Positions 6,432-29,810 of a stretch of DNA of 32,221 nucleotides are shown in pieces. The translations under genes and the position numbers were made by a program. Source of the DNA: Nitrospira sp. (lineage in GTDB: Bacteria; Nitrospirota; Nitrospiria; Nitrospirales; Nitrospiraceae); the NCBI GenBank assembly GCA_016873495.1, contig VGXC01000032.1, positions 1-32,221 of the forward strand. The letters run 5' to 3'. The notes under the pieces were generated by a model that was given only the letters and a program-made list of their open reading frames with translations, did not search any database and had not been told where the DNA came from. Position 1 is the stretch's first letter, and the number at the start of each line of letters is the position of its first letter.

Positions 6432-6460
6432 TGGATTCGCTCAGCCGGTTCGGTTAGAAT
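6432..6460 (+). promoter_or_regulatory. Candidate sigma-70 promoter of murJ
   Basis: TAGAAT (6455-6460, five of six to consensus) lies 8 nt before the ATG at 6469. A poor -35 (TGGATT, 6432-6437) is 17 nt upstream. No Shine-Dalgarno sequence precedes the ATG, so the mRNA may begin at or next to the start codon. Confidence 0.35.
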
Positions 6461-6468
6461 CCGCCGCA

Positions 6469-8088
6469 ATGCCCGACCCGGACGGCCCCCCAGTCGCAGC
6501 GGTTCCAGCCCAGGACGACAACCATATGGTGGTCCGAGCCGCCGGCTTGATCGGCGTCGCCACCCTCTCCAGCCGCATCCTCGGCTTTATCCGCGACATG
6601 GTCCTGGCCCGTCTGTTCGGCGCGACGCCGGCCGCCGACGCGTTTTTCGTCGCCTACCGGATTCCGAACCTGCTGCGCGAACTTTTTGCCGAAGGCTCCA
6701 TGTCCTCCGCCTTCATCCCGGTCTTTACCGAATACCACACCACACGGGAGCAGCGCGACGCCTGGGAGCTGGCCAGCGCGGTCTTCACGACGCTGCTGAC
6801 GATCCTGACCGGGATCACGCTGCTCGGCATCCTGGCCTCGCCCGCGATCGTGTGGCTGCTGGCGCCGGGGTTCCACCAGGACCCGTCCCGCCTGGCCATG
6901 ACGACGCTGCTTACGCAGATCATGTTTCCTTACCTCCTGTTCATCAGCCTGGCGGCCCTGGCTATGGGGGTGCTGAACTCGCTGCGCGCCTTCGCGGCGC
7001 CGGCCTTTTCCCCGGTGCTGTTCAACGTCTGCACGATCGCCGCCGCCTTGGTCCTCTCCCCGCTGCTGAGCGAGCCGATTTTAGGCGTGGCCCTCGGGGT
7101 GGTGGTCGGGGGCGCCGCGCAGTTCGTGATGCAGCTTCCGGGTCTCAAGCGGCGCGGATTTCTGTTCGGCTGGCGGTTCGAGCCGGGCCATCCCGGCGTC
7201 AAACGGATCGGCGCCTTGCTGGTGCCGTCGCTCCTGGGCATGTCGGTGACGCAAATCAACATCACAGTCAGCACGGTCCTGGCCTCGTTCTTCGCCGGCG
7301 CGCCGACCTATTTGTTTTACGGCATGCGGTTGATTCAGTTTCCGCTGGGCATCTTTGGCGTGGCCCTGGCCACGGCCATCCTGCCGACGCTCTCCCAGCA
7401 GGCGGCCCGGGGCTCGTTCGCCGAATTGCGCGACACGCTGGGTTTCGGCCTGCGCATGATCCTGTTCATCATTCTGCCGGCGATGGTGGGGCTGATCCTA
7501 TTGCGGCGGCCGATCGTCCACCTGTTTTTCGAGCACGGGACCTTCACCGCGGCGGACACGGCCGCAACGGCGACGGCGCTCTTGTGTTATGCCGTGGGCC
7601 TGTGGGCCTTCGCCGGGGTGCGGATCGTCGTGACGGCCTTCTACTCGATGCAGGATACGAAAACACCGGCCCTGGCGGCCGTGGCGGGAGTCGTCGGGAA
7701 CCTGGTCCTGTCGCTGCTGCTGATGGGGCCGCTGCAGCATGCGGGGCTGGCCCTGGCCACGGCCCTGGCCTCCATGCTGAACGGGGCCATCTTGGTGGCG
7801 GTCTTGAATCGGCGGCTGGGCGGAATCGACTGGGCCTCCGTGGGCCGGTCGGCCGGACGCAGTCTGATCGCGCTGGCGCCGGTGGTGCTGGCCTCCGCCT
7901 GGGTGGCAGGCGCGGCGGTCTGGACCCATCCGGGCGATTGGATCGCCAAGACGGTGATGCTGCTGGTGGGCGTCGGGTTGAGCGTGACCGGCTACTTCGG
8001 CGTCCATGCGCTGATGCGCTCGCCGGAGCTGGACGTCGTCTGGGGGATTATGAAGCGAAAGCTCGGGGGAGGATCGCATGGCCGCTAA
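6469..8088 (+). CDS. murJ: Lipid II flippase MurJ
   Basis: The 539-aa protein flips lipid-linked peptidoglycan precursor across the inner membrane. The N-terminal signature is clear: AAGLIGVATLSSRILGFIRD and VLARLFGATPAADAFFVAYR, then IPNLLRELFAEGSMSSAFIP (about 20-85). A series of about 14 hydrophobic helices runs to the C-terminus, typical of the MOP exporter fold. E. coli MurJ has 511 aa. The ATG at 6469 gives a 19-residue extension before the conserved MVVRAAG; the ATG at 6526 (520 aa, AGGA 10 nt upstream) is an alternative. The frame is open further upstream but that part is not MurJ-like. The last 11 nt overlap ogt. Confidence 0.95.
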   Translation: MPDPDGPPVAAVPAQDDNHMVVRAAGLIGVATLSSRILGFIRDMVLARLFGATPAADAFFVAYRIPNLLRELFAEGSMSSAFIPVFTEYHTTREQRDAWELASAVFTTLLTILTGITLLGILASPAIVWLLAPGFHQDPSRLAMTTLLTQIMFPYLLFISLAALAMGVLNSLRAFAAPAFSPVLFNVCTIAAALVLSPLLSEPILGVALGVVVGGAAQFVMQLPGLKRRGFLFGWRFEPGHPGVKRIGALLVPSLLGMSVTQINITVSTVLASFFAGAPTYLFYGMRLIQFPLGIFGVALATAILPTLSQQAARGSFAELRDTLGFGLRMILFIILPAMVGLILLRRPIVHLFFEHGTFTAADTAATATALLCYAVGLWAFAGVRIVVTAFYSMQDTKTPALAAVAGVVGNLVLSLLLMGPLQHAGLALATALASMLNGAILVAVLNRRLGGIDWASVGRSAGRSLIALAPVVLASAWVAGAAVWTHPGDWIAKTVMLLVGVGLSVTGYFGVHALMRSPELDVVWGIMKRKLGGGSHGR

Positions 8089-11417: not shown

Positions 11418-12125
11418 TCAATTCATCCATCTCAGAATGTGTGCCCGGCGATAGGCGAGGTAGGGGGTCACCTTCAACGGGTCGTGGCGGCGCGGCGAGG
11501 GCAGGATCGCCGCCAGCAAGGCCGCCTCCTCCGCCGTCAGTTTGGCCGCCGGCTTGCCGAAGTGGTGCTGCGCCGCCGCCTCCGCGCCATAGACGCCCTG
11601 TCCCCATTCGGCGACGTTCAAATAGATTTCCAAGATCCGCTTCTTGGTCAGATGGTGTTCCAATGAGCGCGCGATCAGCGCCTCGCGGACTTTGCGCAAG
11701 AGGTTTTTTTCGGAGGAGAGGTAGAGGTTCTTGGCCAGTTGTTGGGTGATGGTGCTTCCGCCGCGAGCGAGTGTGCCTGATTTGATGTTGCGGACAGTCG
11801 CGTCCTGGATGGCACCCCAGTCGAATCCTTCGTGCTGGAAGAACGAGGCATCTTCGGACACGATGACCGCCTTCTGCAAATGGGGCGAGATGCGGGACAG
11901 GGGCATCCAGGTCCAGCGGGGCGCGACGGGCCGGTCCTGCCGCCGCGCCTCGGCGATGCGGGCCTCGATCAGGGCGGTCGTGGTTGGATTGACCTTGCTC
12001 AGAGCGGGAATGTCGGGAAAGGTGAGCCACCACCAGCCGGCGGTCCCGCCCAGCGCCAGCGCCGCGAGCAGCAGCGATCGAAGCAGAAATCGCGAGAGCC
12101 AGCGGCGCAGATTTGACTTACGCAT
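11418..12125 (-). CDS. mtgA: Monofunctional peptidoglycan transglycosylase
   Basis: The 235-aa protein polymerises lipid II into glycan strands at the inner membrane. It has one N-terminal membrane helix (about 12-36). The GT51 domain follows with EDASFFQHEGFDWGAI (catalytic Glu at about 91), RGGSTITQQLAKNLYLS, KKRILEIYLNVAEWG and AALLAAILPSPRRHDP. There is no transpeptidase domain, and the length matches MtgA (242 aa in E. coli). The ATG at 12125 is preferred; a TTG 18 nt upstream is possible. No Shine-Dalgarno sequence is seen, but a -10-like hexamer lies 6 nt before the ATG. Confidence 0.94.
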   Translation of the reverse strand: MRKSNLRRWLSRFLLRSLLLAALALGGTAGWWWLTFPDIPALSKVNPTTTALIEARIAEARRQDRPVAPRWTWMPLSRISPHLQKAVIVSEDASFFQHEGFDWGAIQDATVRNIKSGTLARGGSTITQQLAKNLYLSSEKNLLRKVREALIARSLEHHLTKKRILEIYLNVAEWGQGVYGAEAAAQHHFGKPAAKLTAEEAALLAAILPSPRRHDPLKVTPYLAYRRAHILRWMN

Positions 12126-12131
12126 GGGCGG

Positions 12132-12137
12132 ATGATA
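12132..12137 (-). promoter_or_regulatory. -10-like hexamer 6 nt before mtgA
   Basis: On the minus strand TATCAT (five of six to consensus) ends 6 nt before the mtgA ATG. No good -35 is seen. With no ribosome binding site present, it would fit a leaderless mRNA. Confidence 0.3.
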
Positions 12138-20290: not shown

Positions 20291-20764
20291 GCCCTTACGA
20301 ATTTTGTCGACGAGGTTGGTGGTGGACGCGCCGGGCACCAGGGGAATCGTCCGAACCGTGCCGCCTCGGGCCTCCACGGTCTCGCGGCCGACGATCTGTT
20401 CCGGCGTCCAGTCGCCGCCTTTCACGAGAATGTCGGGCTCGAGCTCGGCGATGAGGCGGGCCGGGTCCGGCTCGCCGAACAGGACGACATAGTCGACGCA
20501 AGCCAGGGCGGAGAGGACCTCGGCCCGCTGGTCTTGGGGCACGATGGGACGGTCCGGACCTTTCTGCAAGGCCCGAACGGACTCGTCGCTGTTCACCCCG
20601 ACCACCAGCAGGTCGCCCAGCGCTCGCGCCGCCTCTAGGTACCGGACATGGCCCACGTGCATCAAATCGAAGCAACCGTTGGTGAACACGATTCGCTCGC
20701 GGTTCGCCCGCCTGGTGGCCAGCTCCGCCGCCAAGTCGGCGCGACGCTTGATCTTCTCCCGCAT
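20273..20764 (-). CDS. rfaE2: D-glycero-beta-manno-heptose 1-phosphate adenylyltransferase
   Basis: The 163-aa cytidylyltransferase-fold enzyme makes ADP-heptose for LPS. The nucleotide-binding motif HVGH is at residues 36-39 within FTNGCFDLMHVGHVRYLEAA. GVNSDESVRALQKGPDRPIV and ILVKGGDWTPEQIVG follow, and the end is typical of RfaE2 (IPLVPGASTTNLVDKIRK). The kinase half of bifunctional HldE is absent, so rfaE1 must be a separate gene. The final residues come from repeat sequence. The ATG lacks a Shine-Dalgarno sequence and has a -10-like hexamer 6 nt upstream. hldD and gmhA, which act in the same pathway, lie 7-8 kb to the right. Confidence 0.95.
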   Translation of the reverse strand: MREKIKRRADLAAELATRRANRERIVFTNGCFDLMHVGHVRYLEAARALGDLLVVGVNSDESVRALQKGPDRPIVPQDQRAEVLSALACVDYVVLFGEPDPARLIAELEPDILVKGGDWTPEQIVGRETVEARGGTVRTIPLVPGASTTNLVDKIRKGVRREK

Positions 20765-20770
20765 GCGGAC

Positions 20771-20776
20771 ATCTTA
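20771..20776 (-). promoter_or_regulatory. -10-like hexamer 6 nt before rfaE2
   Basis: On the minus strand TAAGAT (four of six) ends 6 nt before the rfaE2 ATG. No good -35 is present. It faces the plus-strand promoter at 20826-20854 in a 96-bp divergent region. Confidence 0.28.
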
Positions 20777-27580: not shown

Positions 27581-28567
27581 CTATGTCCGTTCCGGGCCCC
27601 CGAGCAAGTCCCGGACGTAGCGGCGTACCCCTTCTTCCAGGGAGGTGAACGGCGCCGTGTAGCCGGCGGCGCGGAGCCGGCCCATTTTCGCCTCGGTGAA
27701 ATATTGGTACCGCTCGCGAATTTCAATCGGCGTGTCGATGAACTCGATCGTCTCGGGACGTTCCAATTCCCGAAAGACGCAGCGGGCCAGATCCAGGAAC
27801 GTCCTGGCCTGTCCTGTCCCCAGGTTGAAGATTCCGCGGGTCAACGGCTTCTCCAGGGCGAAGCGGAGCACGTCCACAACGTCGCGCACATAGATGAAGT
27901 CCCGTTTCTGTTCCCCGTCGGCGATCCCGGCTCTGTGGCTCCTAAACAAGCGGACCGTCCCCTTAGTGCGGATTTGGTCGAAGGCGTGGAGGACCACGCT
28001 GGCCATCTTGTCCTTGTGGCGCTCGCCGAAGCCGTACACATTGAAAAACTTGAAGGCCGACCAGGTCGGCGGGGCGCTGCCGCGCCGCTCCTGGTCGAGG
28101 GCCCAGCAGTCGAAGTCCTGCTTGGATTGGCCGTAGGGATTCAGCGGCAGCAACCGGGGAATCAGGGCCTCGTCGTCGTCGTACCCCAGCGATCCGTCGC
28201 CGTAGGTCGCCGCACTGCTGGCATAGACGAGCGGCAGCCGCCGTTTGACGCAGTAGGTCCAGATGTTCTGCGAATACTCCAGATTCACGGCCCTGAGATA
28301 GGCTTCGTTCATCTCCATCGTGTCCGTGCAGGCGCCCAGGTGGACGAGGGCCGTCAGCTCGGGCCGCTCGGTCTGGAGCCATGGCCAGAGGTCGTGCAGG
28401 CCGAATCGGCGCCCGAACTCGATCCCCGTCAGTTCGGGCCTGGCCCCGAACGAGGTTGGATCATCTACCGACACGACGGGCCAGCCCTGCTCGTTGCACG
28501 AGGCCACGAAGCGCGAGCCGATGAATCCGGCGGCGCCGGTGACGAGAATGGGATGAGTGGGTTTCAT
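27581..28567 (-). CDS. hldD: ADP-L-glycero-D-manno-heptose 6-epimerase
   Basis: The 328-aa short-chain reductase is the last enzyme of ADP-heptose synthesis. It has the Rossmann motif GAAGFIGSRF (about 11-20), LGACTDT (about 77-83), YASSAATYGDG (about 114-124) and the catalytic YGQSK (Tyr at about 146, Lys 4 residues on), then KFFNVYGFGERHKDKMASV, a typical HldD stretch. The length is close to E. coli HldD (310). The ATG at 28567 lies 13 nt after the gmhA stop; no Shine-Dalgarno sequence is seen, so it may depend on coupling to gmhA. Confidence 0.95.
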   Translation of the reverse strand: MKPTHPILVTGAAGFIGSRFVASCNEQGWPVVSVDDPTSFGARPELTGIEFGRRFGLHDLWPWLQTERPELTALVHLGACTDTMEMNEAYLRAVNLEYSQNIWTYCVKRRLPLVYASSAATYGDGSLGYDDDEALIPRLLPLNPYGQSKQDFDCWALDQERRGSAPPTWSAFKFFNVYGFGERHKDKMASVVLHAFDQIRTKGTVRLFRSHRAGIADGEQKRDFIYVRDVVDVLRFALEKPLTRGIFNLGTGQARTFLDLARCVFRELERPETIEFIDTPIEIRERYQYFTEAKMGRLRAAGYTAPFTSLEEGVRRYVRDLLGGPERT

Positions 28568-28580
28568 AGTGGGAACGGCG

Positions 28581-29159
28581 TCAGCTCGGTTTGCCGATCA
28601 GTGCGGCATCGATCAGTTCGCAGAGGACATGGCCCAGCGTGATATGGCTTTCCTGAATGCGCGCCGTGACGGTGGAGGGAACGATGAACGCATGGTCCAC
28701 CAACCCGGCTAATTTGCCGCCCTTGCCGCCGGTCCAGCCGATCGTGATCAAGCCTCCTTCCCGCGCGGCCGCGACGGCTTTCAGCACGTTGGGGGAGTTG
28801 CCGCTCGTGCTGATTGCGATGGCGACGTCGCCCTTGCGCCCATGGGCGCGAACCTGCCGGGAAAAAATTTCGTCGTAGCCGTAGTCGTTGCCGATGCAGG
28901 TGACGGCCGCCATGTCCGTCGCCAGGGCAATGGCCGGGTAGGGAGCCCGATCGCGGTGGTAGCGGCCCACGAATTCGGCCGCAATGTGGCTCGCGTCAGT
29001 GGAGCTGCCGCCGTTCCCGAACAGCAGTACCTTGTGTCCCTCCTGGATGGCGCGGATAAGCAATTGCGCCACCAGGACGATGCGGTCGGCATATTCGGTC
29101 ACAAAGCGCCGCTTGACGTCGGCGCTTTCATCGAATGCGTTTAACACTAGCTCTTTCAT
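28581..29159 (-). CDS. gmhA: Sedoheptulose 7-phosphate isomerase
   Basis: The 192-aa SIS-domain enzyme starts heptose synthesis by converting sedoheptulose 7-phosphate to heptose 7-phosphate. GNGGSSTDASHIAAEFVGRY (about 48-67) and STSGNSPNVLKAVAAAREGG (about 117-136) are the sugar-binding motifs. ARIQESHITLGHVLCELID (about 167-185) carries Glu and His residues of the zinc site. The length equals E. coli GmhA. The ATG at 29159 sits exactly at the predicted transcript start of a near-perfect sigma-70 promoter and has no ribosome binding site. It is first of an operon with hldD and the SprT-like gene. Confidence 0.96.
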   Translation of the reverse strand: MKELVLNAFDESADVKRRFVTEYADRIVLVAQLLIRAIQEGHKVLLFGNGGSSTDASHIAAEFVGRYHRDRAPYPAIALATDMAAVTCIGNDYGYDEIFSRQVRAHGRKGDVAIAISTSGNSPNVLKAVAAAREGGLITIGWTGGKGGKLAGLVDHAFIVPSTVTARIQESHITLGHVLCELIDAALIGKPS

Positions 29160-29165
29160 GCGGCG

Positions 29166-29194
29166 ATTGTAGGGGAGCCGACAGGACCTGTCAA
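29166..29194 (-). promoter_or_regulatory. Near-consensus sigma-70 promoter of gmhA
   Basis: On the minus strand TTGACA (29194-29189, perfect), a 17-nt spacer and TACAAT (29171-29166, five of six) end 6 nt before the gmhA ATG. The expected +1 is the A of the ATG, so the mRNA would be leaderless. Confidence 0.8.
29180..29192. promoter_or_regulatory. Perfect palindrome over the gmhA -35, possible operator
   Basis: gacaggacctgtc is a 6-bp perfect inverted repeat around one base. It overlaps the end of the -35 element and the start of the spacer. A protein bound there would block RNA polymerase, but no regulator gene in the window is an obvious partner. Confidence 0.35.
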
Positions 29195-29264: not shown

Positions 29265-29810
29265 TCAGCCTGCGGGGAGGATGAAGTCGGTCGTCCAGCC
29301 GCGTGTCTCCGGGGAGGCCCCGCCCCGGTCCGCTGCGTTGGCCTGCCGGCGGCGGAGCGCCGCCGTGATCCGCGACAGCGCGTCCACGAAGGCCATTTCC
29401 TGATCCGCTCGGACCCGATCCACCACCAGACTGAGAGTCAAGGGAGGCTGGTCGGGATGCTCCGTCTTCCACTCGGCGAGTCGGTCTTCCAGCCGGGTGA
29501 GCAGGATATCGGCTCCCAGGTCGGACGTTTCCAGCAGCAGGACGGCAAACAGGTCCGGCCCGATGCGAGCCACCGCGTCGGAGGTTCGGAACGTGCGCCG
29601 GAGAAGCCGCGCCGTCTCTTTGAGGCTGGCTTCTTGAGCCGGCATCCACGTGCCGTCCGTCCCATTCGCCGGGAGTCCGTCCACCCCGACGACGAACATC
29701 GTCATCTCTCGTTTCACGCGGCGCAAGAGTTTCAGATAATGCTCGGCAAAAAACAGCAGGCCGAATCGGCTCCACGCACCGGTCAGGGAGTCCTGGAGTT
29801 CTTCTGTCAT
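29265..29810 (-). CDS. Degenerate GGDEF domain protein
   Basis: The 181-aa protein opens with DSLTGAWSRFGLLFFAEHYL, the DxLTGxxNR-type start of GGDEF domains. VARIGPDLFAVLLLETSDLG (about 80-99) stands where active diguanylate cyclases have RxGGDEF. The signature is changed to IGPDLF, with both catalytic acidic positions lost or moved, so cyclase activity is unlikely. It might bind a nucleotide or act in protein contact. No sensor domain is attached. The ATG has GGAGG 7 nt upstream. The gene lies upstream of the gmhA promoter in the same direction but is probably separate. Confidence 0.72.
   Translation of the reverse strand: MTEELQDSLTGAWSRFGLLFFAEHYLKLLRRVKREMTMFVVGVDGLPANGTDGTWMPAQEASLKETARLLRRTFRTSDAVARIGPDLFAVLLLETSDLGADILLTRLEDRLAEWKTEHPDQPPLTLSLVVDRVRADQEMAFVDALSRITAALRRRQANAADRGGASPETRGWTTDFILPAG

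Follow-up and report, generated by a model that had tools for sequence, protein, structure and literature searches.

In many bacteria, leaderless genes are marked by a TANNNT motif roughly 12 bp ahead of the start codon (Zheng et al. 2011, PMC3160421). Such genes make up 20–40% of all genes in Actinobacteria and Deinococcus-Thermus, and Nitrospirae is not among the phyla listed there as having them (PMC3160421). In Deinococcus-Thermus, the -10 motif typically lies 6–7 bp upstream of the ORF and is conserved between orthologues, and start codons have been reassigned with its aid (PMC12340547). Leaderless genes have usually been studied where they are abundant, that is, in Actinobacteria, Deinococcus, and archaea. 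Our literature search found no paper on leaderless genes in Nitrospira or on a leaderless gmhA, and no map of Nitrospira transcription start sites; one paper, which deals with a conserved MazF of Nitrospira, includes leaderless mRNAs in its reference list only.

The window, by which we mean the whole stretch of DNA analysed, is contig VGXC01000032.1 (32,221 nt) of Nitrospira sp. GCA_016873495.1, which has a genome of 3.19 Mb. It encodes gmhA, which serves the synthesis of an outer-membrane sugar; Nitrospira-like bacteria are nitrite-oxidising. Judging from sequence, we assign a probability of roughly 0.87 to the reading that a sigma-70-type promoter fires at the gmhA ATG or no more than about 3 nt before it, giving an mRNA free of a Shine-Dalgarno (SD) sequence that would be translated as a leaderless message, and that this is an order-wide trait. 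The features concerned are as follows.

29189..29194, minus strand: gmhA -35 element, TTGACA, matching 6/6 consensus positions (direct reading and promoter scan)
29172..29188, minus strand: gmhA spacer, 17 nt, with neutral-like drift except for the CC directly before the -10
29166..29171, minus strand: gmhA -10 element, TACAAT, matching 5/6 positions (direct reading and promoter scan)
29160..29165, minus strand: gmhA discriminator, CGCCGC, 6 nt, without an SD (direct reading)
28581..29159, minus strand: gmhA, 192 aa, D-sedoheptulose 7-phosphate isomerase-like, leaderless candidate, ATG at 29159-29157
27581..28567, minus strand: hldD, ADP-glyceromanno-heptose 6-epimerase (TIGR02197, above cut-off), 13 nt downstream of gmhA
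29265..29810, minus strand: GGDEF-domain gene on the same strand upstream of gmhA, 105 nt away from it

The original prediction had described a perfect -35, a 17-nt spacer, a -10 matching at five of six positions, and a 6-nt gap to the ATG, and these figures are correct when read directly from the sequence. The hexamers TTGACA and a TATAAT-like element at the 16–18 nt separation of sigma-70 promoters make this most likely a sigma-70-type promoter, with the housekeeping sigma factor as its putative reader. It is the sole 11/12 consensus match found by the promoter scan between 24.0 and 32.2 kb; the same region, when shuffled, yields 1.3 chance sites of any quality scoring at least 9/12. A 13-bp palindrome, GACAGGTCCTGTC (29180-29192), overlaps the -35 element and the spacer, probably by chance; we dropped its reading as an operator, as the gmhA promoters listed for the relatives lack it.

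The best NCBIfam families for the gene product are GmhA/phosphoheptose isomerase, with scores under the strict equivalog cut-offs. Several solved GmhA structures align with the protein from about residue 2–3 onward, so a start at 29159 gives a normal GmhA N-terminus, and this N-terminus is conserved among relatives. Position 29159 is also the earliest ATG, GTG, or TTG behind the preceding in-frame stop, leaving gmhA without an in-frame start upstream. The start codon was assigned from these three observations together.

The strict pattern TTGACA-N17-TANAAT-N{6,9}-ATG has a single match in the 3.19-Mb host genome, and that match is gmhA. Across 58 genomes of the family the same pattern gives 78 matches, 52 of them at gmhA by coordinates; in these genomes the reversed pattern gives 0 matches and a distance-shifted version (N{21,24}) gives 15. 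The strict gmhA match is missing from six genomes, one of which lacks gmhA (G042), and the non-strict variants have a spacer of 18 nt (G001, G023, G060), a gap of 11 nt (G006), or TAGGAT as the -10 (G069). Single sites of 9/12 quality do arise randomly (1.3 per 8 kb), but it is extremely improbable that the gmhA boxes are a chance consensus match, given that the sole strict match in 3.19 Mb falls at gmhA and that the promoter sits at a fixed place in 65 orthologues.

Orthologues of gmhA occur in 135/147 genomes of the family and in all 22 genera sampled. We collected the upstream sequences of 65 distinct gmhA genes from Nitrospiraceae and from marine NPIRA/UBA8639-type Nitrospirales, which are related rather than independent samples and come mostly from metagenome-assembled genomes. 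The spacer is 17 nt long in 63 and 18 nt in two. The gap from the -10 to the start measures 6–9 nt in 64/65 (7 sequences with 6 nt, 8 with 7 nt, 37 with 8 nt, the mode, and 12 with 9 nt) and 14 nt in the remaining one, and ATG is the start codon in 64/65. An SD-like tetramer at the proper position was found in 0/65. If a gene counts as leaderless when its -10 sets +1 on the start codon or no more than about 5 nt away, gmhA falls in this class by its predicted start.

The -35 is TTGACA in nearly all Nitrospiraceae orthologues, and the -10 of almost every relative reads TAGAAT, TACAAT, or TAAAAT. Averaged over sequence pairs in the subset of 44 promoters that carry TTGAC, identity reaches 1.00 in the -35 and 0.91 in the -10; it is 0.51 in the spacer, 0.48 in the discriminator, and 0.375 upstream of the -35, compared with 0.50 at fourfold-degenerate sites of gmhA in the same subset. 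Because the spacer and discriminator lie at about the fourfold-degenerate level and the boxes far above it, the boxes are constrained and the remainder is near neutral; the invariance of TTGACA in this 44-member subset suggests selection on the -35. All 44 of these promoters share two C immediately ahead of the -10, whose third base may be G, C, or A but is never T.

These data also bear on the possibility that most GmhA is made from a longer upstream transcript, for example by read-through from the GGDEF-domain gene, with the proximal promoter playing a minor part. A same-strand gene does end 105 nt upstream, as this account needs. However, an SD precedes the ATG in none of the 65 orthologues, and the sequence upstream of the -35 is unconserved at an identity of 0.375 next to two constrained boxes, which leaves this account improbable. 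A minor longer transcript, arising from an extra upstream promoter or from such read-through, may nevertheless accompany the main one.

In the marine NPIRA/UBA8639-type lineage, the gmhA -35 is GTGAAA-like instead of TTGACA, and many of these promoters have a TGn extended -10, TGATAGAAT, 8–9 nt from the ATG. In three orthologues (L036, L038, and L041), CTC stands where the start codon usually is, and the ATG is four codons farther upstream, 7 nt past the -10. Start codons of two other genes, hemE and murJ, likewise shift by one or two codons and stay near the -10; the shifted hemE starts (L290, L293, L297, L306, and L308) remain 6–7 nt past it. Taken together, the shifted gmhA starts, the extended -10 of the marine lineage, and the hemE and murJ shifts indicate that the distance from -10 to start is itself kept. 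The arrangement is best explained as a trait that the order Nitrospirales has conserved.

The tracking of the start by the -10 also weighs on whether the true gmhA start lies downstream, at the GTG of codon 5 or of codon 20, behind a short leader with a weak ribosome binding site, AAAGAG. The host genome indeed has AAAGAG at codons 2–3 followed by GTG at codon 5. Yet the spacing from AAAGAG to that GTG is too short, most relatives have no possible start at codon 5, the first residues match solved GmhA structures from residue 2–3, and what follows the -10 in the shifted orthologues is the first start codon rather than codon 5. V5 and V20 (both GTG) do not form a conserved second start backed by a good SD. 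Of the two outcomes named beforehand as contradicting a leaderless gmhA, a 5' end well upstream of 29159 and a downstream in-frame start with a ribosome binding site, neither turned up in the sequence analysis; we consider a start at either codon very unlikely.

In the window, the A of the ATG (29159) lies 7 nt past the -10 and is preceded by C, and from this we infer that transcription starts on this A. Leaders of 0–3 nt are allowed across the family, since the gap between -10 and start spans 6–9 nt. A purine heuristic, which is a rough guide, gives a leader of 0 nt in 33/65, of 1–3 nt in 30/65, and thus of at most 3 nt in 63/65. It is possible, if not the account we favour, that this real promoter starts mainly 1–5 nt before the ATG, so that the mRNA has a very short leader, lacking an SD, instead of no leader at all: the 8-nt gap found in 37/65 leaves 1–2 nt when transcription starts 7 nt past the -10, and the 30/65 with a heuristic leader of 1–3 nt point the same way, but the gap in the window itself is 6 nt, which places the A of the ATG, behind a C, at the expected start. 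The functional consequence would be the same, because leaders this short cannot hold an SD.

In the leaderless reading, a strong sigma-70-type promoter would drive gmhA, and probably the gmhA-hldD pair, from a start on the A of the ATG or up to about 3 nt before it. The hldD gene is probably on the same mRNA, which would then carry a leader of 0–3 nt, and with the start on or near the ATG there is no room for an SD in the gmhA message. GmhA would thus be made by leaderless initiation at a 5'-terminal AUG, a route that uses 70S ribosomes or IF2 with fMet-tRNA. The original prediction of a leaderless gmhA finds strong comparative support, in the form of a leader of 0–3 nt, in the geometry, the constraint on the boxes, the lack of an SD in all 65 orthologues, the start tracking the -10, and the SD that accompanies a longer leader in orthologues of other Nitrospirota families.

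Like the leaderless genes of Actinobacteria and Deinococcus-Thermus, Nitrospirales gmhA has a -10 equally far from the start, no SD, and an ATG. It also shares the Deinococcus-type feature of a -10 motif adjoining the ORF, although the Deinococcus-Thermus lineage is unrelated to Nitrospiraceae. In contrast to the Deinococcus type, in which no -35 is needed, Nitrospiraceae gmhA keeps a perfect TTGACA, nearly always at 17 nt.

We surveyed 1.23 Mb (39%) of the host genome, with genes called by a home-made codon-pair caller. Starts in this portion are mostly SD-led, with a GGAG-type peak 5–8 nt upstream. Among genes preceded by 60 nt or more of free space (n=594), TANNAT ends 6–9 nt before the start in 23, where 6.3 are expected (p = 2.5e-7), an excess of ~17/594, or near 3% of promoter-proximal genes in this 39% of the genome. 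An SD precedes 3/29 TANNAT-led genes versus 384/955 others (odds ratio 0.17, p = 8e-4). In a second genome (0.4 Mb, 278 genes), the TANNAT signal is too thin for use alone. Whereas 20–40% of genes are leaderless in Actinobacteria and Deinococcus-Thermus, the share in the SD-dominated Nitrospira genome is thus roughly 3% of promoter-proximal genes.

The TANNAT-led genes include murJ, an mtgA-like gene, hldE-II, and gmhA in the contig, and hemE, fabD, panB, and purM elsewhere in the genome; gmhA and hldE-II are named from family matches, and most of the other names were assigned by reading translations. The hldE-II gene corresponds to hldE domain II, D-glycero-beta-D-manno-heptose 1-phosphate adenylyltransferase. 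The further -10 elements in the contig are as follows.

6455..6460, plus strand: murJ -10, TAGAAT, 8 nt before the ATG at 6469, with this geometry in 29/29 orthologues
20771..20776, minus strand: hldE-II -10, TAAGAT, 6 nt before the ATG at 20764, with this geometry in 19/29 orthologues
12132..12137, minus strand: mtgA-like transglycosylase -10, TATCAT, 6 nt before the ATG at 12125, with this geometry in part of the family only

The leaderless geometry is present in 25/30 hemE orthologues and in 0/30 orthologues of the control gene engB. The engB result rejects the notion that every gene looks leaderless, and the notion that gmhA is the only leaderless gene is rejected by murJ, hemE, and hldE-II, which have the same geometry. 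Within genomes that are otherwise SD-led, gmhA is best explained as the strongest among a few conserved candidate leaderless genes.

Outside Nitrospirales, gmhA looks leaderless in three Nitrospirota families (f4, f12, and f15; 6–9 nt), whereas in three others (f7, f8, and f16) an SD (GGAG/AGGA) precedes the ATG. Family f7 has a TTGACA/TATAAT-like promoter similar to that of Nitrospirales, but farther upstream of the ATG and combined with an SD; in f8 and f16, the same gene has an SD and no promoter seen close by. The same gene therefore exists in leaderless and leadered forms, the leadered gmhA of other Nitrospirota families usually having an SD, and we reject the idea that a leaderless gmhA is fixed phylum-wide, as several of these families are leadered.

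Nitrospirales are mostly SD-led, yet a few named genes keep a leaderless fusion of promoter and start order-wide, which raises the question of why these genes stay leaderless. That selection maintains a small fixed leaderless set (gmhA, murJ, hemE, hldE-II, and others, with several envelope genes among them) as a regulatory device is a speculative and rather doubtful proposal. If true, envelope and heptose synthesis, for example, could be translated while SD-led initiation is limited, and Nitrospirota gmhA would present leaderless and leadered states in one natural series; since sister-family orthologues have a leader and an SD, a natural comparison is available. In practice, the position of the -10 can fix or correct the start-codon annotation of gmhA, hemE, and similar genes.

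Three minor observations concern other promoters and lineages. Two Aquificota gmhA homologues about 55% identical (L082 and L084) have TAAAAT 9 nt before the ATG, so gmhA may be leaderless there too. Upstream of gmhA in L007, L009, and L015, a -10-like TATAGT on the opposite strand lies 8–9 nt before an ATG, and the divergent gene there may for this reason be leaderless. A second recurrent strict promoter of the leaderless type (TTGACA...CTGAAATCTAGAATGCC...ATG) precedes an unnamed gene in genus g10, at G009:C3:345649, G037:C2:44051, G050:C7:87050, G062:C9:9738, G073:C93:3023, G084:C10:67490, and G111:C156:12198.
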